A stretch of 64,000 nt of DNA from Sediminispirochaeta smaragdinae DSM 11293 (lineage in GTDB: Bacteria; Spirochaetota; Spirochaetia; DSM-16054; Sediminispirochaetaceae), in NCBI RefSeq assembly GCF_000143985.1, contig NC_014364.1, positions 3,100,001 through 3,164,000 of the forward strand. The letters are read 5' to 3'. The translations under genes and the position numbers were made by a program. The notes below the pieces were generated by a model, which was not told where the DNA came from, did not search any database, and was given only the letters and a program-made list of their open reading frames with translations. Positions 5,044-37,066 of this stretch are shown one piece after another (within the stretch, counting starts at the first letter, position 1; every line of letters starts with the position of its first letter).

Positions 5044-6489
5044 ATGAAATACTCAGCGCTTCTTACCGACCTGTATGAACTGACCATGATGCAAGGCTAT
5101 TATCTGCTTGGAAACAACCCTCAGGTCTCTTTCGACATGTTTTTTCGCCGCAATCCCTTCTCCGGCGGTTATTCTATTTTTGCGGGTCTTGGAGATCTGA
5201 TCGACACCCTCGAACACTTCTCCTTCGACCAAGAGGCAATCGACTATCTTGACTCTCTGGGAATCTTTAAGAAAGATTTCCTTGATTACTTATCCAATTT
5301 CCACTTTAGCGGGAACCTTTATGCAATGGATGAAGGGACGGTTATCTTTCCCGGAGAACCGATAGTAAGGGTCGAAGCAAATCTCATCGAAGCACAACTT
5401 ATTGAGAGCATTCTCCTCAATATCCTCAACTTTCAGACCCTAATCGCAACAAAAACGGCAAGAGTCTACAATGCCTCCAGGGGAGGGCTTATCCTGGAGT
5501 TCGGGCTCAGACGTGCCCAGGGCTGGGACGGGGCCGTTTCGGCAAGCAGAGCCGCTTATATCGGTGGTGCGGCCGCCACAAGCAATACCCTGGCAGGGAA
5601 GCTTTTCAATATTCCCGTAAAAGGGACCATGGCCCACTCCTGGGTAATGGCATTTCCAAACGAGCTGGAATCCTTCCGCAGCTTTGCAGAAATCTATCCG
5701 GACAACGCAATACTTCTTATCGATACCTATGATGCCCTTGGAAGTGGCATCGAAAACGCCGTTATCGTTGGAAAGGAAATGAAGAAAAAGGGGAAATCAA
5801 TCGGAGTCAGGCTTGACAGCGGAGACCTCTCCTATTTGAGCCAGAAGGTGCGAAAACGACTCGACAAAGAGGGCCTTGAAGATTGTACCATCACCGTTTC
5901 AAACGATTTGACAGAAGAAATCATTCACCAGCTTATGTCCGATGGTGCGCCGATCGATTCATGGGGTGTCGGCACCCATCTGGTTACCGGAGGCTCGGAA
6001 GCAAGCCTTGCCGGCGTGTATAAACTTGGTGCGAAAGAGGTTGACGGCAAGATGGTACCGACGATAAAGCTATCAAACAACGCCGAAAAAACCACGAATC
6101 CCGGTATTAAGCAGGTTTGGCGATTTTTTGATGCGGACAACATGGCGATTGCCGATCTCATCGCCCTTGAAGAAGAACAGATTGCTCCGGGAAAGGCGTA
6201 TCGCTTCTACCATCCTATGTATGAAAATGCCCACTTCATTCTGGATTCCTACGATACCATCAAGCCGCTACTCAAAAAAAAGATCGAAAAGGGCAAGGTT
6301 ATCGCTCCCAAGGAAGGGTTGCCGGAAATACAGCAAAGGGTAAAAGATGGGCTCTCAAAATTCGATAGAACCTATAAGCGTATCATTAACCCCCACATCT
6401 ATAAGGTATCGCTGACATCTGCCTTGAAAAAGCTCAAACTTCATATGATAGAAGAGAGTGAAGAGTGGACGCCGGAAAACGGAAAATAA
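5044..6489 (+). CDS. pncB: Nicotinate phosphoribosyltransferase
   Basis: Makes nicotinate mononucleotide from nicotinate and phosphoribosyl pyrophosphate with ATP hydrolysis, the first committed step of the Preiss–Handler NAD salvage pathway. Diagnostic segments are the N-terminal LLTDLYELTMMQGY, the RRAQG segment near residue 160, GTMAHSWVMAF near residue 200 (the phosphorylated His region) and the phosphate-binding VRLDSGDL. The 481-residue length matches the long bacterial NAPRTase type. A TATAAT box lies upstream. The 3' end overlaps the start of the NeuB-like gene by 25 bases, so the two are probably translated from one message. Confidence 0.95.
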   Translation: MKYSALLTDLYELTMMQGYYLLGNNPQVSFDMFFRRNPFSGGYSIFAGLGDLIDTLEHFSFDQEAIDYLDSLGIFKKDFLDYLSNFHFSGNLYAMDEGTVIFPGEPIVRVEANLIEAQLIESILLNILNFQTLIATKTARVYNASRGGLILEFGLRRAQGWDGAVSASRAAYIGGAAATSNTLAGKLFNIPVKGTMAHSWVMAFPNELESFRSFAEIYPDNAILLIDTYDALGSGIENAVIVGKEMKKKGKSIGVRLDSGDLSYLSQKVRKRLDKEGLEDCTITVSNDLTEEIIHQLMSDGAPIDSWGVGTHLVTGGSEASLAGVYKLGAKEVDGKMVPTIKLSNNAEKTTNPGIKQVWRFFDADNMAIADLIALEEEQIAPGKAYRFYHPMYENAHFILDSYDTIKPLLKKKIEKGKVIAPKEGLPEIQQRVKDGLSKFDRTYKRIINPHIYKVSLTSALKKLKLHMIEESEEWTPENGK

Positions 6490-7604
6490 AGACGAACGCC
6501 GTCCCCTGGATCGTTGCGGAGATTGGTTCGGCCCACCATGGTGATATGGTAAAAGCGGACGAGCTTATCGCCGCGGCGGCAGAATCTGGAGCCGATTGTG
6601 CAAAGTTCCAACTCATCATTGCCGATGAGATTCTTCATCCCGACAGTGGATCCATCATCCTACCCGGGGGGGCGACACCGATCTTTCAGCGGTTTCAGGC
6701 ACTTGAACGCCCCTCCGAGTTCTACAGGGAGCTATCAGAACGCTGTACCAAATACGGGGTCGAGTTTCTTTGCTCTCCATTCGGCGTGCAAAGTGCCGCA
6801 ATCCTACGGGAGATCGGCGTACGGGCGGTAAAGGTAGCATCTCCGGAGCTCAACCATGTTCCGCTTCTGAGGGCTCTTGCCGGTATTCCAAGGATACTTT
6901 CCACGGGGGTCTCAACCCTGTCGGATATCGAAGCCGCCCTCGATGTCTGCGGGACCGAAGAGACGGTGCTCTTGCACTGTGTCACGAGTTATCCGGCCGA
7001 TCCCGCCGAGTATAATCTTTCGATCATTCCCCACCTATCCTCTCTTTTCGGCGTTCCCGTGGGGGTTTCCGATCATTCCACAGATCCCATCCTTATCCCC
7101 GTTATCGCCACAGCCCTCGGGGCAGTGGTCATAGAGAAACACTTTACCCTGGACAAGAAGGGAAAGGGACTCGACGATCCGATAGCCCTTAGCCCTGCGG
7201 AGTTTCAGGCCATGGTATTACAGGTCAGAAAGGCGCGGAGCATGGAGCCACAGAAGATTCTGCAGACACTTTCCAACCAATACGGCAAAGAAACGGTCGA
7301 AGCAATACTGGGAGACGGGAGGAAAGTGCTGAGCAGATCAGAAAAGAGGTACTATACCACGACGAATCGTTCGATTATGGCAATTAAAAACATTGAAGAG
7401 AGGGAAGCTTTTACGACGGAAAATATTGCGCTTCTTCGCAGCGAAACCAACATGAGGCCTGGACTTCCGGGACAATTCTGGGACCTTGTTTTGGGAAGAA
7501 GGGCCGTATGTCCGATAAGAAACGGAGAAGGCATCACCTGGCGCCACTTCAGTGGGCAAGGAGCCCCAGATCGAGCATCATTGATACCAACTTCTCTTTC
7601 GTAA
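6465..7604 (+). CDS. NeuB/SpsE-family nonulosonate (sialic-acid-type) synthase
   Basis: Condenses phosphoenolpyruvate with a six-carbon amino sugar to make a nine-carbon sialic-, legionaminic- or pseudaminic-type acid. An N-terminal TIM-barrel NeuB domain is visible: VAEIGSAHHGD with metal/PEP-binding residues, CAKFQ, VKVASPEL, LLHCVTSYP, GVSDHS and VIEKHFTLD. A C-terminal SAF (antifreeze-like) domain follows at about residues 300–365, containing RSIMAIKNIEE and MRPGLP. It starts with GTG at 6465 inside the pncB 3' end. Its last 56 bases run convergently into the minus-strand cheY gene. It is the only synthase of this type here and could feed the SpsF/SpsG-like glycan cluster at 27.8–34.6 kb; the exact sugar is unknown. 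Confidence 0.85.
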   Translation: MDAGKRKIKTNAVPWIVAEIGSAHHGDMVKADELIAAAAESGADCAKFQLIIADEILHPDSGSIILPGGATPIFQRFQALERPSEFYRELSERCTKYGVEFLCSPFGVQSAAILREIGVRAVKVASPELNHVPLLRALAGIPRILSTGVSTLSDIEAALDVCGTEETVLLHCVTSYPADPAEYNLSIIPHLSSLFGVPVGVSDHSTDPILIPVIATALGAVVIEKHFTLDKKGKGLDDPIALSPAEFQAMVLQVRKARSMEPQKILQTLSNQYGKETVEAILGDGRKVLSRSEKRYYTTTNRSIMAIKNIEEREAFTTENIALLRSETNMRPGLPGQFWDLVLGRRAVCPIRNGEGITWRHFSGQGAPDRASLIPTSLS

Positions 7605-25232: not shown

Positions 25233-26249
25233 TTACGGATTTGTTGTAGCAGCAGGAGCTGCAGACTCACTGGAATCCTGATGAATCTTCCGTGCCTCAA
25301 GGGCTCTCAGCACCTGGATCTCTCCAAGACGCCGCCATTCAGCGGTCCTTCTTGAGGATTCTCTCGAATCAAGAATACCCCACAAGGCTTCATTATCGAT
25401 ATCTCCGGTACCCGGAATGACTGCCAAGTCATAAGTAACCTTCGCATCTTTGATATAGGTAATGATATCACCGCCTTCCTGGGCCGCATCCTTATAGACG
25501 ATAAACCCGACAAGCCTGCGCATGGGAGTCGTTCTAGGATAAAGTGGGTATTTGTGAAGTTCTCTGTTCCTCACATCGGAGATATAATTGGGGTTTACCC
25601 AACCGAGGGTCCGCCAACCATTAAAATCCATGTAATCAAGGAACATCGTCCTCTCTTCACCCTTCTCATCCTTAAGAATAATACCGAGACCATTGGGAAA
25701 GTTGCTTCCGTACACATCTACGGCAATGCTTTTGATGGCTCCGACGTTCTTTACGACACCATAGCTGTCGAACTTGCTTCCCTCACGATCTGTCTCATCC
25801 TCGACCAAGGTTCCGTCGGCCTGAAGCTGAGTTTTCCGCATGTAACCGGGAATCTCAAAGGGGGGTTTAATAACCGCATACGAGTTGAACGGCTCTTCTG
25901 GAAAATGAATACGAACACCCATTACTGTTTCACCGGCAAACTTGCTTGCCTGCTCACTGACTGGGGCTTCCTTTGTATAGGAAAGCTTTTCGTTCGTTAC
26001 AGTCTGGGAAGAAGAGGCCAGATCGACATCCCAATTCTCAATAGCAAGAGAAGTCTTCATCAACTGCTTTTCCTCATCGGTATAACCGACACCCGCTTTA
26101 CCGGAAAAATCAACTATTGTTGCTTCATTGTTGCCATCTTCAAGATCGGCTGTCAAAGTAGAAAAATCGATGAGAACCGATTCTTCCGCATAAAGTGAGA
26201 AACTCACTGCCAAAAGCATGATGCCGAGAAGAATTCCGAATCGTTTCAT
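25233..26249 (-). CDS. flaA: Flagellar filament outer layer (sheath) protein FlaA
   Basis: Forms the sheath around the FlaB core of spirochaete periplasmic flagella. 338 residues: signal peptide MKRFGILLGIMLLAVSFSLYA, then the FlaA domain with the conserved GVRIHFPEEPFNSYAVIKPP, VDVYGSNFPNGLGIILKD, LDYMDFNGWRTLGWVNPNY and GFIVYKDA segments. The C-terminal tail is variable, Ser/Ala-rich. AAAGGAG lies six bases before the ATG. It has its own near-consensus promoter and a strong terminator, so it can be expressed independently of the GerMN/amidase genes upstream. The amidase–GerMN–flaA order also occurs in Treponema. Confidence 0.97.
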   Translation of the reverse strand: MKRFGILLGIMLLAVSFSLYAEESVLIDFSTLTADLEDGNNEATIVDFSGKAGVGYTDEEKQLMKTSLAIENWDVDLASSSQTVTNEKLSYTKEAPVSEQASKFAGETVMGVRIHFPEEPFNSYAVIKPPFEIPGYMRKTQLQADGTLVEDETDREGSKFDSYGVVKNVGAIKSIAVDVYGSNFPNGLGIILKDEKGEERTMFLDYMDFNGWRTLGWVNPNYISDVRNRELHKYPLYPRTTPMRRLVGFIVYKDAAQEGGDIITYIKDAKVTYDLAVIPGTGDIDNEALWGILDSRESSRRTAEWRRLGEIQVLRALEARKIHQDSSESAAPAATTNP

Positions 26250-26335: not shown

Positions 26336-26830
26336 TCACCCCTTCGAAGGCGAGAGTCTTGGCGTTTCACCGTCAATAGTGATGATGATCTTTTCAACAG
26401 AGGGATAATTGAACGTGACGGTCTTCCGGAGTACACCGAGAGCTTCCTGAAAGCTTAACTCGCTATTTTTCGTATCCAGCACCGCCTCGATACTCAAATC
26501 GATATAAGCGGTCTTATCTCTTACCATGACCGTCCGAAGTTTCGTTCCCTCCGCGAAAAGGCGTTCGTTGGTCACCTCAATTGGTCCCAGAAGAATCTCA
26601 TCTACCAAAAGCTCGATATTTCCCTCGAGGTCATCCCTCACGGGAAGGTTTCTGCTCTCACCGGCAACCATGCTCGCTTTATACTGGGGAAAGAAGAACA
26701 CTTTTCTCCTGATCTCTCTTCCCCGAACCAAAAAAAGCGTCAGAGAAAGAAGGAAAAGGGTCAGTAAGAGCAACGACATCCAAGGAACGATTGCCGGGAT
26801 TCGATACTGTTTCGCTACGTGTTTAACCAC
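26336..26830 (-). CDS. Membrane-anchored GerMN-domain protein
   Basis: 164 residues. A basic N-terminus is followed by one membrane segment (WMSLLLLTLFLLSLTLFLV) and an extracytoplasmic GerMN domain (about 60–160), recognised by VDEILLGPI, VMVRDKTAYIDLS, FQEALGVLRKTVTFNYPSV and the closing IDGETPRL. GerMN domains occur in spore germination protein GerM and in cell-wall-associated lipoproteins, often encoded beside amidases as here. GTG start at 26830, 15 bases after the amidase stop. A role in wall remodelling with that amidase, perhaps for periplasmic flagella, is inference. Confidence 0.8.
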   Translation of the reverse strand: MVKHVAKQYRIPAIVPWMSLLLLTLFLLSLTLFLVRGREIRRKVFFFPQYKASMVAGESRNLPVRDDLEGNIELLVDEILLGPIEVTNERLFAEGTKLRTVMVRDKTAYIDLSIEAVLDTKNSELSFQEALGVLRKTVTFNYPSVEKIIITIDGETPRLSPSKG

Positions 26831-26845
26831 AAATAGAACTCCGCC

Positions 26846-27853
26846 TCATTCGCCGAAGCGATTAATAAATCCAACGACGCCATTATAGATGCCCTGGGTC
26901 AGTTTCTTCAAGTAGCCGGCGTCTCCAAGAGAGCGCGCCTCTTCGGGATTCGTGACAAAGCCCAACTCGATAAGCACCGAAGGCATCTTCGCATTACGTA
27001 CAACAAACCACGATTCCTCTTTCAGACCGCGGTTTTCGCTTTTATCGCCGATCATTTGTTCCATCCCAGCCGAAACACTACGGGCGAGAAGGATACTTTC
27101 AACGGTATATTCCTCTTCAAGCATGGTGTTGAGAATGGGAGCGACCTCTCTGGCATTCGGATCAATACTTTCGGGATCGATTAATTCTCTCCGGTAATCC
27201 GGAGGCAGGTACCACACCTCAAAACCGGAAGCCTTGCTATTGAAGGAAGCGTTGGCATGAATCGAGATAAAGACCATCGCCTCGTTTTCCCCCAACTCCA
27301 CCGAATTGGCTATCTCGGTCCGTTCTTCAAGGGTGGGATAGACATCGTCATTTCGAGTCAGCATGATCCGTTTTTCCGGATAGTTCTTCGAAAGCATGGA
27401 ATAGAGCTCTTTGGCAACCTCAAGGACGATGTCCTTTTCTTTGATTACATAAGGCTTTCCATCTATCGTATGGCGACCAACGGCCCCGGGATCTTTACCG
27501 CCGTGACCTGGATCGATAATGATGGTTGTTACGGAGACGGCACTGACATCGGAAACGGGAAAATGCTCTCTTAGTGCGGTGATAAAAGGCTGATCAGCAA
27601 CAAGAGACCCTTCTTTGTTTCTGGTGACGGAACCGCTGCCGATCTCATTCCCATCCAGAAGATAATAGCTTCCGTCGAGGCCAAAGCGTAAAGAATGACC
27701 ACCCCGCTCTAAAACCCCTATCCCAAGATAGGGGTCCCATCTAAAACTCAGACCAAGATTCTCTATTTCCGGCTTCAAAGCCTGCTGCCCAGCTGCGGGA
27801 ATCAGAGCACACAGAAAGAACAGCAGTGCGGCTGCGGCTATGCGTTTTCCCAA
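26846..27853 (-). CDS. N-acetylmuramoyl-L-alanine amidase (Amidase_3)
   Basis: Zinc amidase that cleaves the bond between muramic acid and the stem peptide. The signal peptide and an N-terminal AMIN-like region (about 25–105) are followed by the catalytic domain: IIIDPGHGGKDPGA (first zinc His), VIKEKDIVLEVAKEL (Glu ligand), FISIHANAS (second His) and SVLIELGFVTNPEEA (catalytic Glu). The best start is a TTG at 27853, which overlaps the ATP-grasp stop by 16 bases. In treponemes the same order amidase–GerMN–flaA is found, so it may open peptidoglycan for periplasmic flagella or daughter cell separation. Confidence 0.92.
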   Translation of the reverse strand: MGKRIAAAALLFFLCALIPAAGQQALKPEIENLGLSFRWDPYLGIGVLERGGHSLRFGLDGSYYLLDGNEIGSGSVTRNKEGSLVADQPFITALREHFPVSDVSAVSVTTIIIDPGHGGKDPGAVGRHTIDGKPYVIKEKDIVLEVAKELYSMLSKNYPEKRIMLTRNDDVYPTLEERTEIANSVELGENEAMVFISIHANASFNSKASGFEVWYLPPDYRRELIDPESIDPNAREVAPILNTMLEEEYTVESILLARSVSAGMEQMIGDKSENRGLKEESWFVVRNAKMPSVLIELGFVTNPEEARSLGDAGYLKKLTQGIYNGVVGFINRFGE

Positions 27854-29505
27854 ATTTGTAACTCCCGCCTATAGTCGATATCCCGCTCTCTCCAAGAGCG
27901 GACCGTGTCGATGATCCATACCCCTCCCTGAATGCCTCCCCGCAGAAAAGCCCTCCAGAAAAGCGATCCGAGGAGAAGGCCATCTTGTCCGGACATCCTC
28001 CACTTTTGGAGATCCATGGCAGATACTCCGGTGAGAGCAAGAAGACGATCAAAGCCTTCCCTCAAGCCGAGGCCGTGCCAATCTACGGCAGCCTCGCTTC
28101 TGAGTATCGGCAGAGAGGCAAGGGCAATTGAGTCCGAGAGAGGCGCGGAAGGCCTTTTGCCAACACCGTAGATCGGCTCAAGACGTGAAAGTTCAGCACA
28201 ATTTTCCTCACAGGAAAGAGAATATGCATCGGGGATCCAGGCCTCTTTTTTTCCAAACAGAAAAACCCCGGTCCGTTTTTCACCGGGAACAAGCCGTACA
28301 AAGACCCGACCTGCTCCATCTTGAGCAGAGGAAACAGCCTGATCACGACGGTCCGAGGACGCCAGGACATTTCCGCATTTCTGTACGTTGTTTACCGGAA
28401 AGTTCACCTCACTTCCCGGCTCAATAAGAACAAATATTTCCTTAACGCGCTTGATGGCCCTGGCCTTACCCAGAGATTCCACGGCAGCGACGACACCAGG
28501 TATCGAGATAAAACCTCGCTCGGCACAGGTATGATTGCGCACGGGAGAGGGAAGATTTGCCGGTAATCCGACGGCAATATTCAGGGCACCGGCGGTCGGC
28601 TGCACCCCGCTGGAGAGGGGATAGGTCCAGCCAGACATGAAACCACCGGAAAGTCGTGCGGCAAGCTCCCCGATCCAGGCCTTTCCCCGGCAGAACTTGA
28701 CATCCCCCTTTGCAGCACCATTATCGATTCCAATGGCCTCTACTGCCTTAAGGAATTCCCCCTTTACCTCTTCGATCATGTCGGCAGGAGCGGAAGAGGG
28801 AATAGTATGCCCCATCTCGACAAAATAGGGAGCAAAGGTGATGTGACGATCGGCAATACCGCAAAAACGCACCTGCCCCTTCTCCACCAAGGCGTCGATA
28901 CTGAATTCCGGTCCATCGAGAAACTCTTCAACGATCACCGAACCACTTCGACTGAAACGAAAGGCGTCATCGAGGGCGGAGGAAAGCTCCTCATCATTAT
29001 CAACCCTTCTGACCCCCCGGGCGCCCATGTTGTCGACCGGTTTTACCACAAGGGGATACGATAGCTCTTTGGGAATTTCTTTTTCTCCATCGGCCAATTG
29101 CACGAATCGGGGGACACGGACATTCGCATCGGAAAGAGTTCTTCGCATAAGCGCCTTATCGCTTGCAGCCATGGCTGCCTTGACGGAGATACCGGGAAGC
29201 GTGAGTTTTTCCGCTACACGAGCGACGGTGAGTGAAAAATCGGTACCGGCGGTAAACACCCCATCGATGCCCCCCTCCTTCCGCATCACCTCGGCAGCAT
29301 CGATCATCGCTTCCCATGCCTTCAAATCGACATGGAAGAATCGATCGGCGAGGGAAATACCGGGAGCCTCGTCGGATCCATCGGCCACGGCCACATACCA
29401 CCTCTTCGCCTTTGCAATCCGAATCGCCGGAAGCTGCATAATGCCGCCTCCAAGAATCAAGATACGTTTTTTTGCCGCAGCAGTCTCATTATTCTGGCCT
29501 ATCAT
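27838..29505 (-). CDS. ATP-grasp ligase of the glycan cluster, with C-terminal extension
   Basis: 555 residues. An ATP-grasp fold occupies about residues 14–340: preATP Rossmann part RILILGGGIMQLPAIRIAKA and FTAGTDFSLTVARVAEKL, ATP-binding YPLVVKPVDNMGARGVRRV, VIVEEFLDGPEFSIDAL, and GELAARLSGGFMSG near the metal site. About 200 further residues include a charged region and a tail without known domain. ATP-grasp enzymes join a carboxylate to an amine or similar nucleophile through an acyl phosphate. In a sugar locus this could add an amino acid or acyl group to a nonulosonate or amino sugar, but the substrate is unknown. ATG at 29505 after AGGAG; it overlaps the upstream gene by 17 bases and the amidase by 16. 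Confidence 0.82.
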   Translation of the reverse strand: MIGQNNETAAAKKRILILGGGIMQLPAIRIAKAKRWYVAVADGSDEAPGISLADRFFHVDLKAWEAMIDAAEVMRKEGGIDGVFTAGTDFSLTVARVAEKLTLPGISVKAAMAASDKALMRRTLSDANVRVPRFVQLADGEKEIPKELSYPLVVKPVDNMGARGVRRVDNDEELSSALDDAFRFSRSGSVIVEEFLDGPEFSIDALVEKGQVRFCGIADRHITFAPYFVEMGHTIPSSAPADMIEEVKGEFLKAVEAIGIDNGAAKGDVKFCRGKAWIGELAARLSGGFMSGWTYPLSSGVQPTAGALNIAVGLPANLPSPVRNHTCAERGFISIPGVVAAVESLGKARAIKRVKEIFVLIEPGSEVNFPVNNVQKCGNVLASSDRRDQAVSSAQDGAGRVFVRLVPGEKRTGVFLFGKKEAWIPDAYSLSCEENCAELSRLEPIYGVGKRPSAPLSDSIALASLPILRSEAAVDWHGLGLREGFDRLLALTGVSAMDLQKWRMSGQDGLLLGSLFWRAFLRGGIQGGVWIIDTVRSWRERDIDYRRELQIWENA

Positions 29506-31345
29506 GATAGCGCTCCTGTTTTGTTGCATAGAGTTCAAAGGTATCTCCCAGACGCAAACGAGCTGCAAGAGAATGGAGAAGGCTTTCAGGAAAAGCGCTA
29601 AACGGGAAAGGAAAACGCTCGCTGTGAATACCGGTGGAAACAAGCCTGTCGACACGAAAACCATGGCGGGAAAGCCAGCTGGAAACCTGCTCCGGAGCCA
29701 TGATCGAAAGATGATCCGAAGGACTCGCAGCAAAAAATGCATCAGGCTTACGTCTGGCACTCATGCCGCGAAACGAAGGCGTCGAGAACGCGAATACCCC
29801 CCCGGGACGAAGCAGACGTTGTATCCCTTCAATGACCTGAAAGAGGTTCGGCAGGTGTTCGACTACATACCAAAGGGTAATAACATCATAGTGCGCGGCC
29901 GTTGCTGCAAGGGGGCCGTCAAAAAGTATATCATCGACAGCTCCTGCATAAACAGGAATATCAAGCCGCTCTTTTACATATGATACGGCGCCAGGGGTGA
30001 TCTCGATACCTTCGCAGAAAAACCCTGCATCCCGGGCCGCGGCAAGAAAAGGACCGTAGGCACAGCCGATATCAAGGAGTCTGCGGCCGGAAGTTTTCCC
30101 GATAACGGCGGCGATATGCTCCAAGCGCTGCACAGAAAGGGCCTTGATATGGTCGAAATCCTCCAGATAATCCCGCCCGTATTGGCTCCGGTACTCGGAA
30201 AAGAAATAGTCTTCACCGTATCGGTTTTCAGGAGGAAAGGGATCGAAGAGGGCCATGGCTCCACAGGAGGCACAACGCCGTACCGACCTTTCCTCACTCC
30301 GATGTACCACAGAACTCTCCACACTGTTAAGGCGACGACCGCACAGGGGGCAGACGACGCCTCCTTCGGGCCTCATTGAGAGGATCAACGACTCAACATC
30401 GCGGTCGCAATTCCATCCGTCCCCGGGATTCGGGACATGAAGCCGACTGATCTCCAACCGGGTAAGCGGCCGTTCAGGAAACAGGTGCCGCAGTCGGATT
30501 TCAAGGCGGTCCCGGCCCTTCCGGCCCGACACCCAGCCGAGAGAAGAGAAACCACTCTGTTTGGAAAGGAGCTGATGATACCTTGAGGGGTTGAGCAAAA
30601 GAACGGCAGTACCGCAGGAGACCGCCTCCCAGGCAGTCAGACCAAAAGAACTTATAAGCAGGTCGGATGAACGGAACAGGGGAAGCGGGTCCGGAACCGG
30701 ATCAATCTGCTTTACCCCAGCAGGTAAGGCAAAGGGTTCACCAACGCTTCTGCGAATCACCTGAATCTGTGAAGCCTGGAGATAGGCACCATCGATCAAG
30801 AGTCGGACAATAAGAGGGGTCAAATTCTCAGGGTCCTCCCCCCCGAAGGAAATCAAAACGGACGGGAGATCAGAACTTCTCTTTGTTTCGGCCTCACCAA
30901 CGGAGGGAAGGATACCGATATTTGCTTTCCCTCCCTGTTTACGCTTCGGCAAAAGATCGATCAGATAGGAAAACTTTTGACGGAAGTCGCCTCCCTCATC
31001 GATTCCCACAAGATAACCGAGGGAATCCAGAAACGCCACTTCCTTAGCTGAGGAGGCTCGAAGATCGGCAACGATAAGCGGAGCGGGAGATTCCTCCCCA
31101 CAGAGCATTGGATGCCGGGGAAAATCCTCTAAAGAAAAGAGCAAGCTTGGGTCAACCCCATGGAGAAAAGCAAGCTTCCGCGCATTGACAAGCTGCCCCT
31201 CATCGACGGCAATCAGCACCCTACGTCCCTCGTCACGGGCACGCCTTGCCAGACGAAGGGAGCGGACAATATGGCCGGTACCGCTTCCCCTGCAAAAACG
31301 GGGAACACATACCACCGGAGGGCTTTCTCGTCGATTATCACCCAC
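29489..31345 (-). CDS. SpsG/PseG-like nucleotide-sugar GT-B protein fused to a zinc ribbon and a SAM methyltransferase
   Basis: 618 residues. The N-terminal half (about 10–325) resembles SpsG/PseG: GSGTGHIVRSLRLARRARDEG with the His typical of the family, LISFGGEDPENLT, and SDLLISSFGLTAWEAVSCGT. PseG removes UDP in pseudaminate synthesis. The middle has two Cys pairs (CPLCGRR and CASCG) forming a probable zinc ribbon. The C-terminal third is a class I methyltransferase (RLLDIGCAYGPFLAAA, WYVVEHLPN, LRPGGVFAFSTPS). The GTG at 31345 with GGGAG eight bases upstream is preferred over an ATG at 31375 and overlaps the SpsF-like stop by eight bases. The fusion suggests the same sugar is released and methylated. 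Confidence 0.82.
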   Translation of the reverse strand: MGDNRRESPPVVCVPRFCRGSGTGHIVRSLRLARRARDEGRRVLIAVDEGQLVNARKLAFLHGVDPSLLFSLEDFPRHPMLCGEESPAPLIVADLRASSAKEVAFLDSLGYLVGIDEGGDFRQKFSYLIDLLPKRKQGGKANIGILPSVGEAETKRSSDLPSVLISFGGEDPENLTPLIVRLLIDGAYLQASQIQVIRRSVGEPFALPAGVKQIDPVPDPLPLFRSSDLLISSFGLTAWEAVSCGTAVLLLNPSRYHQLLSKQSGFSSLGWVSGRKGRDRLEIRLRHLFPERPLTRLEISRLHVPNPGDGWNCDRDVESLILSMRPEGGVVCPLCGRRLNSVESSVVHRSEERSVRRCASCGAMALFDPFPPENRYGEDYFFSEYRSQYGRDYLEDFDHIKALSVQRLEHIAAVIGKTSGRRLLDIGCAYGPFLAAARDAGFFCEGIEITPGAVSYVKERLDIPVYAGAVDDILFDGPLAATAAHYDVITLWYVVEHLPNLFQVIEGIQRLLRPGGVFAFSTPSFRGMSARRKPDAFFAASPSDHLSIMAPEQVSSWLSRHGFRVDRLVSTGIHSERFPFPFSAFPESLLHSLAARLRLGDTFELYATKQERYHDRPE

Positions 31346-32045
31346 GCCCGTTGCTCCCTTCTTCTTCAGATGCACGGTACCATGAAATGAGCCGTTGTAC
31401 CGGTATGGGCTCTCCGGTATAGCACTCCCGAAAAATACGGGAGAGATAACGATAATCTTCCGGGGTATCCAGGGTCACTCGCATATCCGGCAGGGAAAGG
31501 GCTACAGGGGCCTGGGGTCTGGCAATAAGAAATCGTTCGGGTCGATGATACAGGAAGGGAGCGACATGCTCCCGCTCATAGGGATCGGTGCTCTCCTTAT
31601 CCGCCAAACGCAAGGCATCCGCCCTCATCACCTCAACACCGGTGCCAAGGGGTGGGCCAAGAAAGCCGCAATAATCCCAGCTGTGGAGCTGCTGGAGTTC
31701 GAGAAGTTGTGATGCGAGGGAAGCACTGACCAGGGGATTGTCCCCGGTTGCCCGTAGAATACGGTCAAACCCCCTGCCTTCAATGGCCAGGGCAAAACGC
31801 TTGAGAACATCCTCTTTGGGCCCTGTAAAAAGTTCAAAATCCCACTTTTCGGCAAGAGACTGGAGCTTGGAAGCACTATCGGCATCAGTAACAAGAATCC
31901 TATCGGCAGCAGGGACCAAGAGAAGAGAGCGCATGGCATGCTCGACAACGGTTAAATCGCCCAAAGCAAGGAGGGCCTTTCCCGGGAGCCTCGTGGAATC
32001 CAGGCGCACTTGCAGCAGAACCGCATCCTTTGTGGTACTACTCAT
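31338..32045 (-). CDS. SpsF/CMP-KDO-synthetase-family cytidylyltransferase-like protein
   Basis: 235 residues, GT-A fold of the CMP-sugar activating family. VLLQVRLDSTRLPGKALLAL is the SpsF variant of the nucleotide-binding P-loop-like start. RATGDNPLV carries the metal-binding Asp, and TDPYEREHVAPFLY and RVTLDTPEDYRYL close the active site as in SpsF and NeuA-like proteins. It probably couples a nine- or eight-carbon sugar acid, or an amino sugar, to CMP. The ATG at 32045 overlaps the upstream stop by four bases and has GGGAG eight bases before it. Together with a NeuB-like gene at 6.5 kb and the SpsG-like neighbour it points to a nonulosonate-type product. Confidence 0.85.
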   Translation of the reverse strand: MSSTTKDAVLLQVRLDSTRLPGKALLALGDLTVVEHAMRSLLLVPAADRILVTDADSASKLQSLAEKWDFELFTGPKEDVLKRFALAIEGRGFDRILRATGDNPLVSASLASQLLELQQLHSWDYCGFLGPPLGTGVEVMRADALRLADKESTDPYEREHVAPFLYHRPERFLIARPQAPVALSLPDMRVTLDTPEDYRYLSRIFRECYTGEPIPVQRLISWYRASEEEGSNGRG

Positions 32046-33001
32046 TCGGCAGTCTCCCACAGGTCCGTCACACTGCGGGCATCTCGGCAGAAACGAAACC
32101 GGTTTTCCCGGACCCAATGGGAAGCATCGCGGAATTCCCTGATCCTGGAAAAAATCGAACCTCCTTGCTTTCCTGCATAGGGTAAAAAGCGTCCTGCCGG
32201 CAAGACGCCGGCATCCCCATCGAAGCGGACGGCAAGATTTTTCAGATAAAAGCGGCCATAGCTCGCATCAGGGGTGGTATCCTCCGCCTCATGGTCACCA
32301 AGATAGCGAACGCGGAAGGAGGTGGAACAAAGCAGTTTTTCTCCCCACATATGGGTCCGAAACCCGAAATCCATTTTCTGCCAGTGGGGATTGGAGATCA
32401 GGGCATCGTACCCTCCAAGCAGGAGGAAACGTTCCCGTTCGTAGAGGCCACAGTAATCGAAGGGGAAGAGAGAGGGAACAGCATCGGCGCTCGGCACCAT
32501 GGGAAGCGTCTTGAGCCTGTTGCGATAAAAGGCAGGCGCGGCAATGGAAGGAACCGTTTCGAGCTTTGGTGATTGGAGATGAGGAACCGTACAAAGCCGT
32601 TCCTGGGACAATATTCGTGAAAGGAGCCCTTCGGAAAGGGGGCCGGGCAGCATATCATTCCAAAGCACGAGGACAAGTCGGCCCTGGGCCTCCTTCATAC
32701 CGAGATTTACCGCCTCCCCCGCCGAAACCCTTTGGTGCAGCAAGAGAAAACAGACCTGGGGATATCTAGCCGAAAGGGCCTCAACATCGAAGGACCGTTC
32801 TTGCCCCTCCACAGAGATAATCTCGAAATTCCCTATACGCTCAAGTTCCCGAAAATAATCGTTCCGATAGGGACGCCCTCCCCTATTGAGAACAACCAGA
32901 GATAAAAGGGGCGGAATGGTAAGCTTTCGGTCTTCGCGTTTCTTCCCGACGATGGTATAGGGAAGACGCGAATCGTCAGAAATTAAATGTGTAGTACTCA
33001 T
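32042..33001 (-). CDS. Putative glycosyltransferase (GT-A-like) of the glycan cluster
   Basis: 319 residues. The central part resembles family 2 glycosyltransferases: LSLVVLNRGGRPYRNDYFRE, VSAGEAVNLGMKEAQGRLVLVLWNDM (the end of the nucleotide-sugar region, with ND replacing the usual DxD), FDYCGLYERERFLLLGGYDA and HWQKMDFGFRTHMWG. It most likely transfers the activated sugar to a protein or glycan, but a degenerate, non-catalytic role cannot be excluded. The ATG at 33001 lies inside the 3' end of the radical SAM gene (26-base overlap) after GAGGG. No membrane segment or signal peptide, so it acts in the cytoplasm. Confidence 0.7.
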   Translation of the reverse strand: MSTTHLISDDSRLPYTIVGKKREDRKLTIPPLLSLVVLNRGGRPYRNDYFRELERIGNFEIISVEGQERSFDVEALSARYPQVCFLLLHQRVSAGEAVNLGMKEAQGRLVLVLWNDMLPGPLSEGLLSRILSQERLCTVPHLQSPKLETVPSIAAPAFYRNRLKTLPMVPSADAVPSLFPFDYCGLYERERFLLLGGYDALISNPHWQKMDFGFRTHMWGEKLLCSTSFRVRYLGDHEAEDTTPDASYGRFYLKNLAVRFDGDAGVLPAGRFLPYAGKQGGSIFSRIREFRDASHWVRENRFRFCRDARSVTDLWETAE

Positions 33002-34559
33002 CACAGCCCTCGCAGGGATATCCCCATTCCTGTCGGGTATGAGCAAGATACCGCTCCTCCCCACGCTTCCAAATGTCCTTCAGTGGCTCTTCAAAAACGT
33101 TGCCAAGCAGTGTCCCCTGCTGTATAGACTCGCTTCCGGGAATGATCTCCTTGCAGAGCGGCACCGAACCGTCAAGAAAGATATGAAGGTCACGTTTCAG
33201 ATGCCAACAGGGGAAACGAACCACAGGAGAAAGATCGGTAACCTTCAGCTCTTCAAGCGCTCCGGCAAAATTGTCGTATTTCTGAATGATCACCTCCACG
33301 TTCTGCTTCTTCCAAAATCGGTAAAATTGCTCAAGCTCGGCCTCATTCTCTTTCGTTCTGACCGCCTGGACCCTCACATGACCGGGAAAGCGCTCGGCGA
33401 GAGCCCTCACCGTTGCCAAGGCCTCTTCCATGCCCTCTCCTCGAAAACGACGATAGGTCTCAAGCTCAAAGGCATCCAGGGAAACGACCCATTCGATGCG
33501 CTCCGTTGCTGTCTCAAGAGTAGCAATGGCGTCCAACACGGACAAGTTCCATCCGATCCCTGAGGTTTCAATCATGGCCGATAATCCGGGCCGGGAGATT
33601 ACCTCCCCAACCATTGCCTGGATGTCGGGATGGAGCGCAGGCTCCCCCCAAAGGGAAAGGCCGATTACCGCCTCTTCACTGAGCTCAAGCACCTGATCGA
33701 GGATGGAGGCAAGGGCCTCAGGGCTCATCGATTCGCTGCGATCGATCGCCTTCGACGGTGCCTTCGGATAGGGACACCAACTACAGCGCTGAGGACAAGC
33801 GGAATGGATCTGAACATAGATAAAGGCGGGTACGGTTCGCAGCAATGCGGGCTGTCGGACCAAAATCTCCGGAATAGGCTCTACCTCTCCGCCCGCGTCG
33901 ATAATATGCTTGAGAAGCAGGGTCCGCTCTTTTCCCCTGGCCGCAAGATCGACCCGAAGAAGGCGCAGATCGTCGGGGGCTATTTCCGTCTCGATATCGA
34001 AGGCGTTGATATCTTTTTGGATAAGATCAAATAGGATGGAATCGGAAAGGGGTACATCCTTGCCGGAGGAACGTGAAGAGCGGTAGAGCTCCCGTATCTG
34101 TCCGATCGCCGAAACCGATACGATCTCGGGAGCGATGAACCTGGGATAGCCGTCGGCGAAACTATAGGTTGCATAATAATGTTCGTGATTATGCAGCATG
34201 CGCAGGGCAAGGCTTTCATCAAAGAGGGGAGCATCGGCATAGAGATGGTAAAAAAGCTGCAGAGATCCCTCTGTCGGGGCCGGAAGGGACGATGCAGCCT
34301 CATCCAGGGCCTGGAGAAAGGCATCGGTATCCCACTGCTGCCGCTGTACGAAGACTACGGCATCAAGCCCCTTTTCCCGTAGATGCCCGGAGGCGACATC
34401 TACATAGCGTGAGGGAAGAAAAAGGAAGCATCTGCCGCCGGGGGCAAGGGACAAGGCTTTTCGAACCGTCCTCGATAAAGCGGTATCACCGTCGGAGAAA
34501 AGAGGATCGAAGGCATGACCGTCGATGTGAATTGCATTCAGAACAACAAAGATATCCAT
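32976..34559 (-). CDS. Radical SAM/SPASM protein with an N-terminal nucleotidyltransferase-like domain
   Basis: 527 residues. Residues about 1–150 look like a GT-A nucleotidyltransferase domain (LFLPSRYV near 46–53, YADAPLFDESLALRML at about 107–122). From about 245, VQIHSACPQRCSWCPYP supplies the radical SAM CX3CX2C motif (Cys255, Cys259, Cys262) for the 4Fe-4S cluster. SLWGEPALHPDI and ETSGIGWNL are core strands. The C-terminal PLCKE and CEGCDEYY cysteines, with FPCWH before them, form a SPASM-type auxiliary cluster region. Reaction unknown; in sugar loci such enzymes perform epimerisation, dehydration or C-C chemistry. It is first of the five overlapping glycan genes, 38 bases after proB. 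Confidence 0.8.
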   Translation of the reverse strand: MDIFVVLNAIHIDGHAFDPLFSDGDTALSRTVRKALSLAPGGRCFLFLPSRYVDVASGHLREKGLDAVVFVQRQQWDTDAFLQALDEAASSLPAPTEGSLQLFYHLYADAPLFDESLALRMLHNHEHYYATYSFADGYPRFIAPEIVSVSAIGQIRELYRSSRSSGKDVPLSDSILFDLIQKDINAFDIETEIAPDDLRLLRVDLAARGKERTLLLKHIIDAGGEVEPIPEILVRQPALLRTVPAFIYVQIHSACPQRCSWCPYPKAPSKAIDRSESMSPEALASILDQVLELSEEAVIGLSLWGEPALHPDIQAMVGEVISRPGLSAMIETSGIGWNLSVLDAIATLETATERIEWVVSLDAFELETYRRFRGEGMEEALATVRALAERFPGHVRVQAVRTKENEAELEQFYRFWKKQNVEVIIQKYDNFAGALEELKVTDLSPVVRFPCWHLKRDLHIFLDGSVPLCKEIIPGSESIQQGTLLGNVFEEPLKDIWKRGEERYLAHTRQEWGYPCEGCDEYYTFNF

Positions 34560-34597
34560 AACTCGTTTATCGACACTCCCGAAAGGGGATTGTAGCA

Positions 34598-35698
34598 TTA
34601 ATCAAGAAAGACAATATCTTCAGGCAGCGAAACCTCATCCCGCCGTTTACTACCGATGATGGAGGTGATGTCGGCGGTGTGATGTCCCATCAATTTCCGA
34701 AGCTCCTCGCTATCGAAGGCGGTCACCGCCTTGGCAATATCGTTAATGGCAACCACCTCGCCCGAATCAAAGAAGCCCTCGACTCCTACGATCCCCGGAG
34801 GCAAAAGACTCTTGTGACGCCTGAGCGCACTAACCGCCCCCTCGTCTATCCAGATGGTACCTCGGGGGGCGCTATTGAGAATCCAACGGTTACGTGCCGA
34901 AAGACGTTTGCCCGCAAGAAAAAGGGTACCGATATCCTCCCCTTCACAAATTCTCGGAAGCACATTCTTCTCATTACCATGGGCCAAGACAATGGAACAG
35001 CCGGCCGAGGCGGCAATCTCTGCGGCGAGGAGTTTCGTCTTCATGCCGCCGGTGGAAAAGGTACTTCCGGGGGTTCCAGCCCAGCTGAACACCTCATCGG
35101 TGATCTTGGGAACAACGGCGATGCGACGTGCATGAGGGTCGTTTTTTGGGTCCCCATCGTAGAGGCCGTCAATATCCGTAAGGATGATCAGAAGATCGGC
35201 ATCGATCTTGCTGGCGACCATGGCGCTGAGACGGTCGTTGTCACCAAAGGCAAGGTTGATCTCATCAACGGCAATGCTGTCGTTCTCATTAAAGATAGGA
35301 ACAACGTTAAGAGAAAGCAGGGTTTCCACCGAAGCCTGAAGGTTAAGGTAGGTCCTGCGATTGTTCAGCACATAACGCGTAATAAGCACCTGGGCAATGG
35401 TGACTCCGTGATCTGCAAAACACTCCCGATACTGGTGCATGAGAAGGGGCTGCCCAATGGCGGCACAGGCCTGGCGCATCCGAATTTCGGTCACTCTACT
35501 CTCTATACCCAGTTCCATGGCCCCCATCCCGATGGCCCCGGAACTGACGAGAAGAACCTGTTTCCCTGCCTGCAGCAGGGAAGCAACCTGATCACAGAAT
35601 CGCCCCATTGCCTCCACATCAAGCCCTCCGTCCCGGGCCAATAGGTTTGTACCGATCTTGACCACAATCCGATTTGCTTTTCGAAGGGCATCTCTCAT
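34598..35698 (-). CDS. proB: Glutamate 5-kinase
   Basis: First enzyme of proline synthesis; phosphorylates glutamate and hands it to ProA. The amino-acid-kinase domain (about 8–260) shows VVKIGTNLL, LVSSGAIGMG, NENDSIAV, FGDNDRLSAMVA, LTDIDGLYDGDP and STGGMKTKLLAA. A C-terminal PUA domain (about 278–355) is present as in full-length bacterial ProB. The ATG at 35698 follows AGAGGTC. It lies nine bases after proA and 38 bases before the radical SAM gene, which suggests one transcript into the glycan genes. Confidence 0.96.
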   Translation of the reverse strand: MRDALRKANRIVVKIGTNLLARDGGLDVEAMGRFCDQVASLLQAGKQVLLVSSGAIGMGAMELGIESRVTEIRMRQACAAIGQPLLMHQYRECFADHGVTIAQVLITRYVLNNRRTYLNLQASVETLLSLNVVPIFNENDSIAVDEINLAFGDNDRLSAMVASKIDADLLIILTDIDGLYDGDPKNDPHARRIAVVPKITDEVFSWAGTPGSTFSTGGMKTKLLAAEIAASAGCSIVLAHGNEKNVLPRICEGEDIGTLFLAGKRLSARNRWILNSAPRGTIWIDEGAVSALRRHKSLLPPGIVGVEGFFDSGEVVAINDIAKAVTAFDSEELRKLMGHHTADITSIIGSKRRDEVSLPEDIVFLD

Positions 35699-35707
35699 AG
35701 CCGACCT

Positions 35708-37012
35708 CTATAACAACGCATCGGAGGGATCGGCGGAGATATCTTGATGGAGAAATGAACGGCGTCCGGAGGCGTAATCGTCGACAATCTGTCCGGAACC
35801 GATCATACGCCACTTATAGATCATAAGACCTTCAAGCCCCACAGGCCCCCTGGCATGGATCTTATTCGTACTGATCCCCACTTCGGCACCGAGACCATAG
35901 CGATATCCGTCGGAAAATCGTGTGGAACAATTCCAGAAAAGATCGGCGGAATCGACCCTGGCCATAAAGAACGACGCCTTAGCAGGATCATTCGTCACGA
36001 TGGCATCGGTATGGCCGGAACCGTAGCGGTTGATATGAGCGACAGCCTCATGGATATCCTTCACGACCCGTATGGAAAGGATCGGCCCCAGATACTCTGT
36101 ACGCCAATCCTCTTCGGTAGCGGCAGCTACATCGATAACGCTTCTGGTCGTATCACATCCCCTAAGCTCCACCCCTGCGGCCTGAAAGGCCTTTTGCAAG
36201 GGCGGCAACAGCCGGGAAGCGGCAGCCTCGTCAACGAGAAGGGTCTCAAGAGCGTTGCAGACGGCCATATACTGGGTCTTCGAATCAACGGCAATGGAAA
36301 CAGACATCACTTCATCAGCATCCTCGGCAAGATACAGATGGCAGATACCATCGGCATGTCCGAGAACTGGAATGGAAGAGTTCTTCATAATATGACGTAC
36401 AAAGTCGTTCGATCCCCGGGGAATAAGGAGATCAACCAGATCGTCGAGTTCAAGGAGTTCTCCCACCTCCTCTCTACTTTCCAAAAGGGCCATCCACCCC
36501 TTGGGGGCACCGGATGCAACACTCCCTTCGGCAATAAGAGAAGCGAGAGCTCTGTTTGTCCGCAGGGCCTCACTGCCCCCCTTGAGAAGCAATCCGTTTC
36601 CGCTTTTAAGTGCGAGAGATGCAATCTGTACCAGGGCGTCCGGCCTTGACTCGAAAATCATGCCGATGACCCCGATGGGACAGCTTACCCGATAGAGGTT
36701 GAGCCCCTCGTCCAGTTTTCTCGCTTCAAGGATCTTTCCGGCAGGGTCAGGAAGACCGATTAAGGCATCGATTCCGGCTATTACCTGATCGAGTTTGGTT
36801 TCGTCGAATTTGAGTCGTTTCAAAAGAGGTGCCGAAAGATTATCTTGTGTGGCAGCATCGAGATCGGCCCTGTTCGCCTCGAAAATTGTCTTTGCGCCTT
36901 TTCGAAGGGCCTGTTTCATGCCGACAAGCGCATCATTTTTCGCAGATCCTTTTGCCGCCCCAAGCAAAATCTGGGCATCTTTCACCATTAGGGCTTTTTC
37001 TCTGACACTCAT
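35708..37012 (-). CDS. proA: Glutamate-5-semialdehyde dehydrogenase (gamma-glutamyl phosphate reductase)
   Basis: Second step of proline synthesis: NADPH-dependent reduction of gamma-glutamyl phosphate. 434 residues of the aldehyde dehydrogenase fold. The conserved CPIGVIGMIFESRPDALVQI, LKSGNGLLLKGGSEA, VDLLIPRGSNDFVRHI and the AVCNALETLLV region with the catalytic Cys are present, as is GLGAEVGISTNKIHARGPVG near the end. The ATG at 37012 starts the typical MSVREKAL N-terminus; the frame is open a little further upstream. It is followed by proB after nine bases. proC is elsewhere (2.1 kb). Confidence 0.96.
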   Translation of the reverse strand: MSVREKALMVKDAQILLGAAKGSAKNDALVGMKQALRKGAKTIFEANRADLDAATQDNLSAPLLKRLKFDETKLDQVIAGIDALIGLPDPAGKILEARKLDEGLNLYRVSCPIGVIGMIFESRPDALVQIASLALKSGNGLLLKGGSEALRTNRALASLIAEGSVASGAPKGWMALLESREEVGELLELDDLVDLLIPRGSNDFVRHIMKNSSIPVLGHADGICHLYLAEDADEVMSVSIAVDSKTQYMAVCNALETLLVDEAAASRLLPPLQKAFQAAGVELRGCDTTRSVIDVAAATEEDWRTEYLGPILSIRVVKDIHEAVAHINRYGSGHTDAIVTNDPAKASFFMARVDSADLFWNCSTRFSDGYRYGLGAEVGISTNKIHARGPVGLEGLMIYKWRMIGSGQIVDDYASGRRSFLHQDISADPSDALL

Positions 37013-37066
37013 AGGTATATGGTAGACCGTAAAAGCCCAGCGTGGCAACAACCAATCACTGCTTGT

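Follow-up and report, generated by a model that had tools for sequence, protein, structure and literature searches.

A Conserved flaA-linked Operon of Spirochaetota with a Predicted Role in Flagellin Glycosylation

The window, the whole 64-kb stretch of Sediminispirochaeta smaragdinae DNA analyzed here, carries five overlapping genes for a radical SAM protein, a glycosyltransferase-like protein, an SpsF-like cytidylyltransferase, a fused SpsG-like/methyltransferase protein, and an ATP-grasp ligase, followed on the same strand by genes for an amidase, a GerMN-domain protein, and the flagellar sheath protein FlaA. The cassette is an old conserved operon. We consider it probable, with good confidence, that the block encodes the late part of a nonulosonic acid pathway by which the FlaB flagellins of the periplasmic flagella are O-glycosylated, and in which the methyltransferase and an amide-forming ligase would make the N-acyl arm of the sugar. 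The overall pathway assignment is strong; domain content, catalytic motifs, gene order, and phylogenetic distribution are read directly from the sequences, and the individual reactions, their order, and the identity of the S. smaragdinae glycan are matters that we infer. S. smaragdinae SEBR 4228T is a motile anaerobe with periplasmic flagella and a genome of 4,653,970 bp (PMC3035371). Filament assembly and motility of Treponema denticola depend on the glycosylation of its flagellin (PMC9481697), and in Leptospira glycans have been reported at the interface of core and sheath (PMC13144727). A literature search found no genes assigned to the late steps or the acyl arm of the published T. denticola sugar, and the operon names candidates for both, namely the ATP-grasp ligase, the fused methyltransferase, SpsF, and SpsG, which are conserved down to a 1.14-Mb genome of Treponema pallidum size.

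Organization of the Locus

All five open reading frames are on the minus strand and span positions 34598 down to 27838 of the window; ORF and domain searches bear out the placement and order given by the first-pass annotation. The spiro-SPASM radical SAM protein of 540 residues (32976..34598, starting at 34598 or 34559) is followed by the glycosyltransferase-like protein (32042..33001), the SpsF-like cytidylyltransferase (31338..32045), the fused protein with its SpsG/PseG-like domain (30371..31345) and its zinc-ribbon and class I SAM methyltransferase domain (29489..30370), and the ATP-grasp ligase with a LAL_C2 domain (27838..29505). Taking the most probable start codons, one finds overlaps of 26 bases between the radical SAM and glycosyltransferase genes (32976–33001), 4 bases between the latter and spsF (32042–32045), 8 bases between spsF and the fused gene (31338–31345), 17 bases between that gene and the ATP-grasp gene (29489–29505), and 16 bases between the ATP-grasp and amidase genes (27838–27853), so that the reported overlaps of 4 to 26 bases, continuing into the amidase, were recovered. 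Three conserved neighbors belong to the same operon and strand: an N-acetylmuramoyl-L-alanine amidase (Amidase_3, PF01520, E = 4e-49; 26846..27853), a GerMN-domain protein (Germane, PF10646, E = 7e-10; 26336..26830), and, as the last member of the conserved block, the flagellar filament sheath protein FlaA (PF04620, E = 1e-76; 25233..26249). Directly upstream of the radical SAM gene, on the same strand, are proA and proB (34598–37051); base 34598 is common to the proB frame (34598–35698) and the radical SAM frame. Among the loci that were read, this linkage occurs only in two families (f1 and f15), and proA and proB were rejected as members of the unit.

Conservation of Gene Order

Eighty loci around spiro-SPASM genes, from about 35 families, were taken for comparison, and their genes were marked by profiles built from the window proteins. 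The order radical SAM, glycosyltransferase, SpsF, SpsG/methyltransferase, ATP-grasp, amidase, GerMN, FlaA is nearly unchanged through the class. In 50 of 81 Spirochaetota loci the nine parts are all on the same strand and no more than 12 kb from the radical SAM gene; the linkage to flaA is kept across about 20 families, and FlaA is the final gene of the block in families f22, f24, and f37 as well. In more distant families only the radical SAM, SpsF, and SpsG genes stay together, the ATP-grasp gene being located elsewhere in the genome. As this order holds throughout the class and, in part, outside it, the cassette is far more than a chance arrangement. Spiro-SPASM was above its cut-off in none of 14 control genomes outside the Spirochaetota, and in a contig scan the best 80 loci (there were 423 further confirmed matches) all had spirochaete titles save one, titled "bacterium." The domain fusions, which had been described as new, are present, but they are old and widespread and not peculiar to S. 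smaragdinae; in Treponema (family f3) SpsF, SpsG, and the methyltransferase are usually a single protein. In both of the distant-family examples that were scanned (L233, 2172–4340; L234, 1319–3649), the ATP-grasp protein also contains a fused FMN-dependent dehydrogenase domain (PF01070); the hydroxy acid used by the ligase may be processed by this domain.

One genome (G366) has a FlaB gene just upstream of the radical SAM gene, with a protein of 247 residues that weakly resembles CBM9 between the two (L066:16600–17340). In another, two FlaA-like frames (L122:1708–3230) and a flagellin gene are separated by about 7 kb. The genome taken as T. denticola (G165) matches 13 of 13 primers tested from PMC9481697. 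Here the amidase, GerMN, and FlaA genes (TDE1714–1712) and the ATP-grasp gene are apart from the other cassette genes, and the conserved operon provides a context for flaA as an apparent orphan flagellar gene in this species. A search by eye for the ATP-grasp gene next to T. denticola flaA gave only TDE1715, which reads as phosphoglycerate kinase, and TDE1716, a small unrelated protein. The 1.14-Mb genome of T. pallidum size (G056) keeps the radical SAM, glycosyltransferase, SpsF/SpsG/methyltransferase, and ATP-grasp genes, together with NeuB, PseB-like, PseC-like, and four Maf genes.

Glycosyltransferase, SpsF, SpsG/Methyltransferase, and ATP-grasp Proteins

The sequence match of the glycosyltransferase-like protein is weak (PF00535, E = 0.004, below the cut-off of that family). 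Its structure model (pLDDT 88) has a GT-A fold, and with VIA-align it superimposes on the GT27 polypeptide GalNAc-transferases with Z of about 20, the next group having Z of 15, but at an identity of only about 15% and with no conserved D-x-D motif; the modeled fold is clear, and the protein is a putative glycosyltransferase. The SpsF-like protein, a predicted producer of CMP-sugar, matches CTP_transf_3 (PF02348, E = 8e-21), and its nearest solved relative is a Leptospira cytidylyltransferase (6oew, E = 6e-20), followed by KdsB. The CTP signature R-x-x-S-x-R-L...K is present in 62 of 71 orthologues, the window copy reading RLDSTRLPGK.

The SpsG domain, a predicted UDP-sugar hydrolase, is a weak match to PseG (TIGR03590, E = 4e-8, 33 bits versus an equivalog cut-off of 154), and the G-x-G-H-x-x-R motif is retained in 60 of 62 orthologues. 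The methyltransferase domain in the same frame matches Methyltransf_23 (PF13489, E = 2e-21); it is predicted to be an O-methyltransferase, the nearest solved structures being the O-methyltransferase UbiG and the sugar methyltransferase TcaB9. The ligase matches ATP-grasp_4 (PF13535, E = 2e-15, 57.5 bits) and LAL_C2 (PF18603, E = 3e-12, 47.2 bits), both above the Pfam cut-offs. Its nearest characterized relatives of solved structure, L-amino acid ligase BL00235 and BacD, are both amide-forming, and by sequence it is predicted to join an organic acid to a sugar amine. A second, distant relative of the ATP-grasp protein (146 bits) is encoded by a frame of 750 residues in one genome that also has a closer one (L237:3887–6136).

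The Spiro-SPASM Radical SAM Protein

The first gene had been identified as radical SAM, and the family was correct; it belongs to a named NCBI family, TIGR04321 spiro-SPASM, which it matches with 624 bits (curated cut-off 250) over positions 2–510 of 510. The first-pass annotation missed the N-terminal domain of about 230 residues, which is an SpsF-like nucleotidyltransferase domain (hhalign against SpsF: probability 98.4, E = 9e-15). In the structure model (pLDDT 92), the N terminus has Z of 20 to the Leptospira cytidylyltransferase and the C-terminal part has Z of 22–24 to BtrN, SuiB, and other SPASM/twitch enzymes. The CTP-binding signature was found in none of 174 spiro-SPASM N termini.

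In the window protein the CxxxCxxC motif is intact (CPQRCSWC) and is followed by a four-cysteine SPASM/twitch site of the form C-x12-G-x4-C ... C-x2-C. Of 174 sampled orthologues, 45 lack the CxxxCxxC motif, a fraction that gives no phylum-wide estimate because the sampling favored high-scoring orthologues; those without it include T. denticola, the genome of T. pallidum size, and all five Brachyspiraceae sampled. In contrast, 172 of the 174 retain all four SPASM cysteines. A quick protein tree made without the motif columns requires at least 17 changes of the motif, and under a one-way assumption with midpoint rooting there are 19 losses. One orthologue (L087, from G356 of family f3) is still full-length although neither the radical SAM cysteines nor any of the four SPASM cysteines remain in it. 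Since CxxxCxxC is missing in many orthologues, radical chemistry, which had been put forward as part of the pathway, is not its conserved function.

A literature search found no paper that names TIGR04321 spiro-SPASM, and the SpsF-like N terminus and the repeated loss of CxxxCxxC, both read from the sequences, are newly described here. We offer the following interpretation tentatively, as one that could well be wrong. Spiro-SPASM may be an SpsF paralogue that lacks the CTP signature and is fused to a radical SAM enzyme, with a conserved non-radical core formed by sugar-nucleotide binding and the SPASM metal site; the AdoMet cluster would have been discarded many times, the radical step would be optional, and lineages with the intact motif, such as S. 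smaragdinae, might make a flagellin sugar chemically different from that of T. denticola and Brachyspira. Repeated loss of the radical SAM cluster in a phylum-wide protein is an unusual natural experiment on enzyme repurposing, and the most interesting point is the role of this protein once the radical cluster is gone.

NeuB, Pse-type, and Maf Partner Genes

The NeuB/PseI-like nonulosonate synthase of the window (6465..7604, plus strand; PF03102, E = 6e-64, with an SAF domain, E = 3e-7) is unlinked to the cassette. Its mention in connection with the cassette proved apt: the NeuB proteins of T. denticola and T. pallidum are its orthologues, with 43% and 40% identity, respectively, and its phylogenetic profile is largely that of the cassette. 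The second NeuB of the genome, which is only 26% identical to it, was rejected as the pathway enzyme. In the T. denticola and T. pallidum-sized genomes, the NeuB gene is followed by genes for proteins of 137 and about 650 residues (L244:7659–10030 and L242:7231–9674), neither of which had a match within the window.

PseB-like and PseC-like genes are adjacent in the S. smaragdinae genome (C1:1421146–1423376), which also has five matches to Maf (PF01973). The PseI equivalog scores 216 against a cut-off of 340, and the PseC and PseB equivalogs exceed their cut-offs in no genome tested. Because the PseB, PseC, PseG, and PseI scores all fall below the equivalog cut-offs, the sugar may be another nonulosonate. 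No PseH match above the cut-off was obtained in 36 genomes, as would be expected if the ligase takes the place of the acetyltransferase; a weak PseH-like protein is present in some genomes, including T. denticola.

Proposed Pathway and Its Target

In the proposed pathway, the unlinked PseB-like dehydratase and PseC-like aminotransferase would produce a UDP-amino sugar, from which the SpsG domain would remove UDP, and the NeuB-like enzyme would carry out the condensation that turns the product into a nine-carbon diamino acid. Its free amine (N7, if T. denticola is a guide) would then be coupled by the ATP-grasp ligase to a hydroxy acid, O-methylated by the fused methyltransferase, and SpsF would form the CMP-sugar. 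Maf transferases would attach the sugar to Ser/Thr of FlaB before export, and FlaA, a product of the same operon, would then bind the decorated core. The T. denticola glycan is reportedly a mono-acetylated pseudaminic-type acid with a 2-methoxy-4,5,6-trihydroxyhexanoyl arm on N7. The computed masses of mono-N-acetyl Pse (274.117) and a methylated 3-deoxyhexonyl amide (176.068) add up to 450.185 Da, so that this structure is consistent, in mass alone, with the published 450.2 Da. A literature search on the chemical name of the acyl arm found nothing relevant. For such a sugar there must be a free amine, a ligase to form the amide, and an O-methyltransferase, and this is what the cassette adds to the NeuB/SpsF/SpsG set.

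It is unlikely that the glycan is placed on the FlaA sheath protein and not on FlaB. The position of flaA as last gene of the block and the Borrelia-like genomes, in which FlaB evidently assembles without the pathway, would favor such a target, but FlaA leaves by a signal peptide whereas Maf acts on flagellin in the cytoplasm. Moreover, the glycan of 450.2 Da in T. denticola, which is needed for filament assembly, was found on the FlaB proteins (PMC9481697), and the title of Wyss 1998 states that the flagellins are glycosylated and the sheath proteins are not. The "filament or sheath" of the first-pass annotation would most likely narrow to the FlaB core, and the FlaA sheath, to judge from that title, would be left out.

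Co-occurrence with Flagella

The distribution of the cassette also connects it with the presence of flagella, a link that had been set as a test of the proposal. A profile was made over 393 genomes, with flagellin found in 351 and a spiro-SPASM cut-off of 250 bits. Spiro-SPASM exceeded the cut-off in 290 of the 351 genomes with flagellin versus none of the 42 without it (some of these being identified by elimination, as genomes not on the list), in which the few matches all had E of 2e-9 or worse; Fisher's test gives p = 2e-28, a value that ignores shared ancestry. The cassette is thus not common in non-flagellated spirochaetes; the opposite finding had been named in advance as evidence against the link. 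Among the 61 genomes with flagellin and no spiro-SPASM, 36 belong to one Borrelia-like family with genomes of about 1 Mb, which we take to be Borreliaceae, and the rest are mostly divergent or incomplete. The co-occurrence is one-way because Borrelia-like spirochaetes have flagella without the pathway. Cassette and flagella were lost together at least three times, in family f12, in genus g13 of family f9, and in G363 of family f13, and relatives of the latter two (G298 and G309, respectively) keep both.

In a panel of 74 genomes, the ATP-grasp gene is present in 50 and missing from every Borrelia-like or flagellum-less genome tested, and Maf, present in 52, follows the same split between flagellated non-Borrelia genomes and the others with one weak exception. 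Strong NeuB, PseC-like, and PseB-like matches (the last over 57 genomes) mostly follow the flagellar split, with exceptions that include G224, G227, G250, G266, and G310; some flagellum-less genomes carry one or another of these genes, which probably serve other glycans there. One genome (G317) has flagellin, NeuB, and Maf and yielded neither the radical SAM nor the ATP-grasp gene; its assembly is fragmented (93% completeness), and therefore a contig may be missing.

These distributions bear on two other roles for the cassette. It is very improbable that it makes a sugar of a surface polysaccharide or LPS and lies near flaA by chance: members of the SpsF, SpsG, and NeuB families act in the synthesis of surface glycans as well, and the second NeuB of the genome is in an apparent polysaccharide cluster (L245), but the cassette is absent from all tested flagellum-less relatives, its tie to flaA persists across many families, and it is kept in the genome of T. 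pallidum size, T. pallidum being a bacterium without LPS. Modification of peptidoglycan or its precursors, which the Amidase_3 neighbor and a weak match of the ATP-grasp protein to D-Ala ligases might suggest, is likewise very improbable, as spirochaetes without the cassette still have peptidoglycan, the closer relatives of the ligase are L-amino acid ligases, and the profile tracks Maf and flagellin.

Comparison with Known Systems

The radical SAM gene of the window is a full member of the NCBIfam family TIGR04321 spiro-SPASM. Flagellin modification in Shewanella oneidensis needs a PseI-like protein, a SAM methyltransferase, and an ATP-grasp protein encoded in sfmABCDE; the product is a nonulosonate of 274 Da with an O-methylated substituent, and Maf genes are present (PMC3765264). 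The cassette and its partners share the PseI-like, methyltransferase, and ATP-grasp components with this system, a likeness by kind of enzyme, but no radical SAM/SPASM protein, SpsF–SpsG genes, or linkage to flaA are described there (PMC3765264). The legionaminic acid pathway of Bacillus subtilis sps has enzymes of the SpsE (NeuB), SpsF, and SpsG types in common with the cassette but is directed to the spore crust, and no methyltransferase, ATP-grasp, or radical SAM partner was found in its description (PMC7439481). Orthologues of the glycan genes of the cassette are present in T. denticola, the FlaB glycan of which (450.2 Da; Kurniyati 2017, cited in PMC9481697) has a mass compatible with a mono-acetyl nonulosonate that bears a single methylated hydroxy-acid amide, in agreement with the enzyme set of the cassette. 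In T. denticola, however, these genes are dispersed among several sites and the spiro-SPASM protein has lost its radical SAM cysteines; S. smaragdinae has the complete operon and intact cysteines, and its glycan may therefore differ from that of T. denticola.
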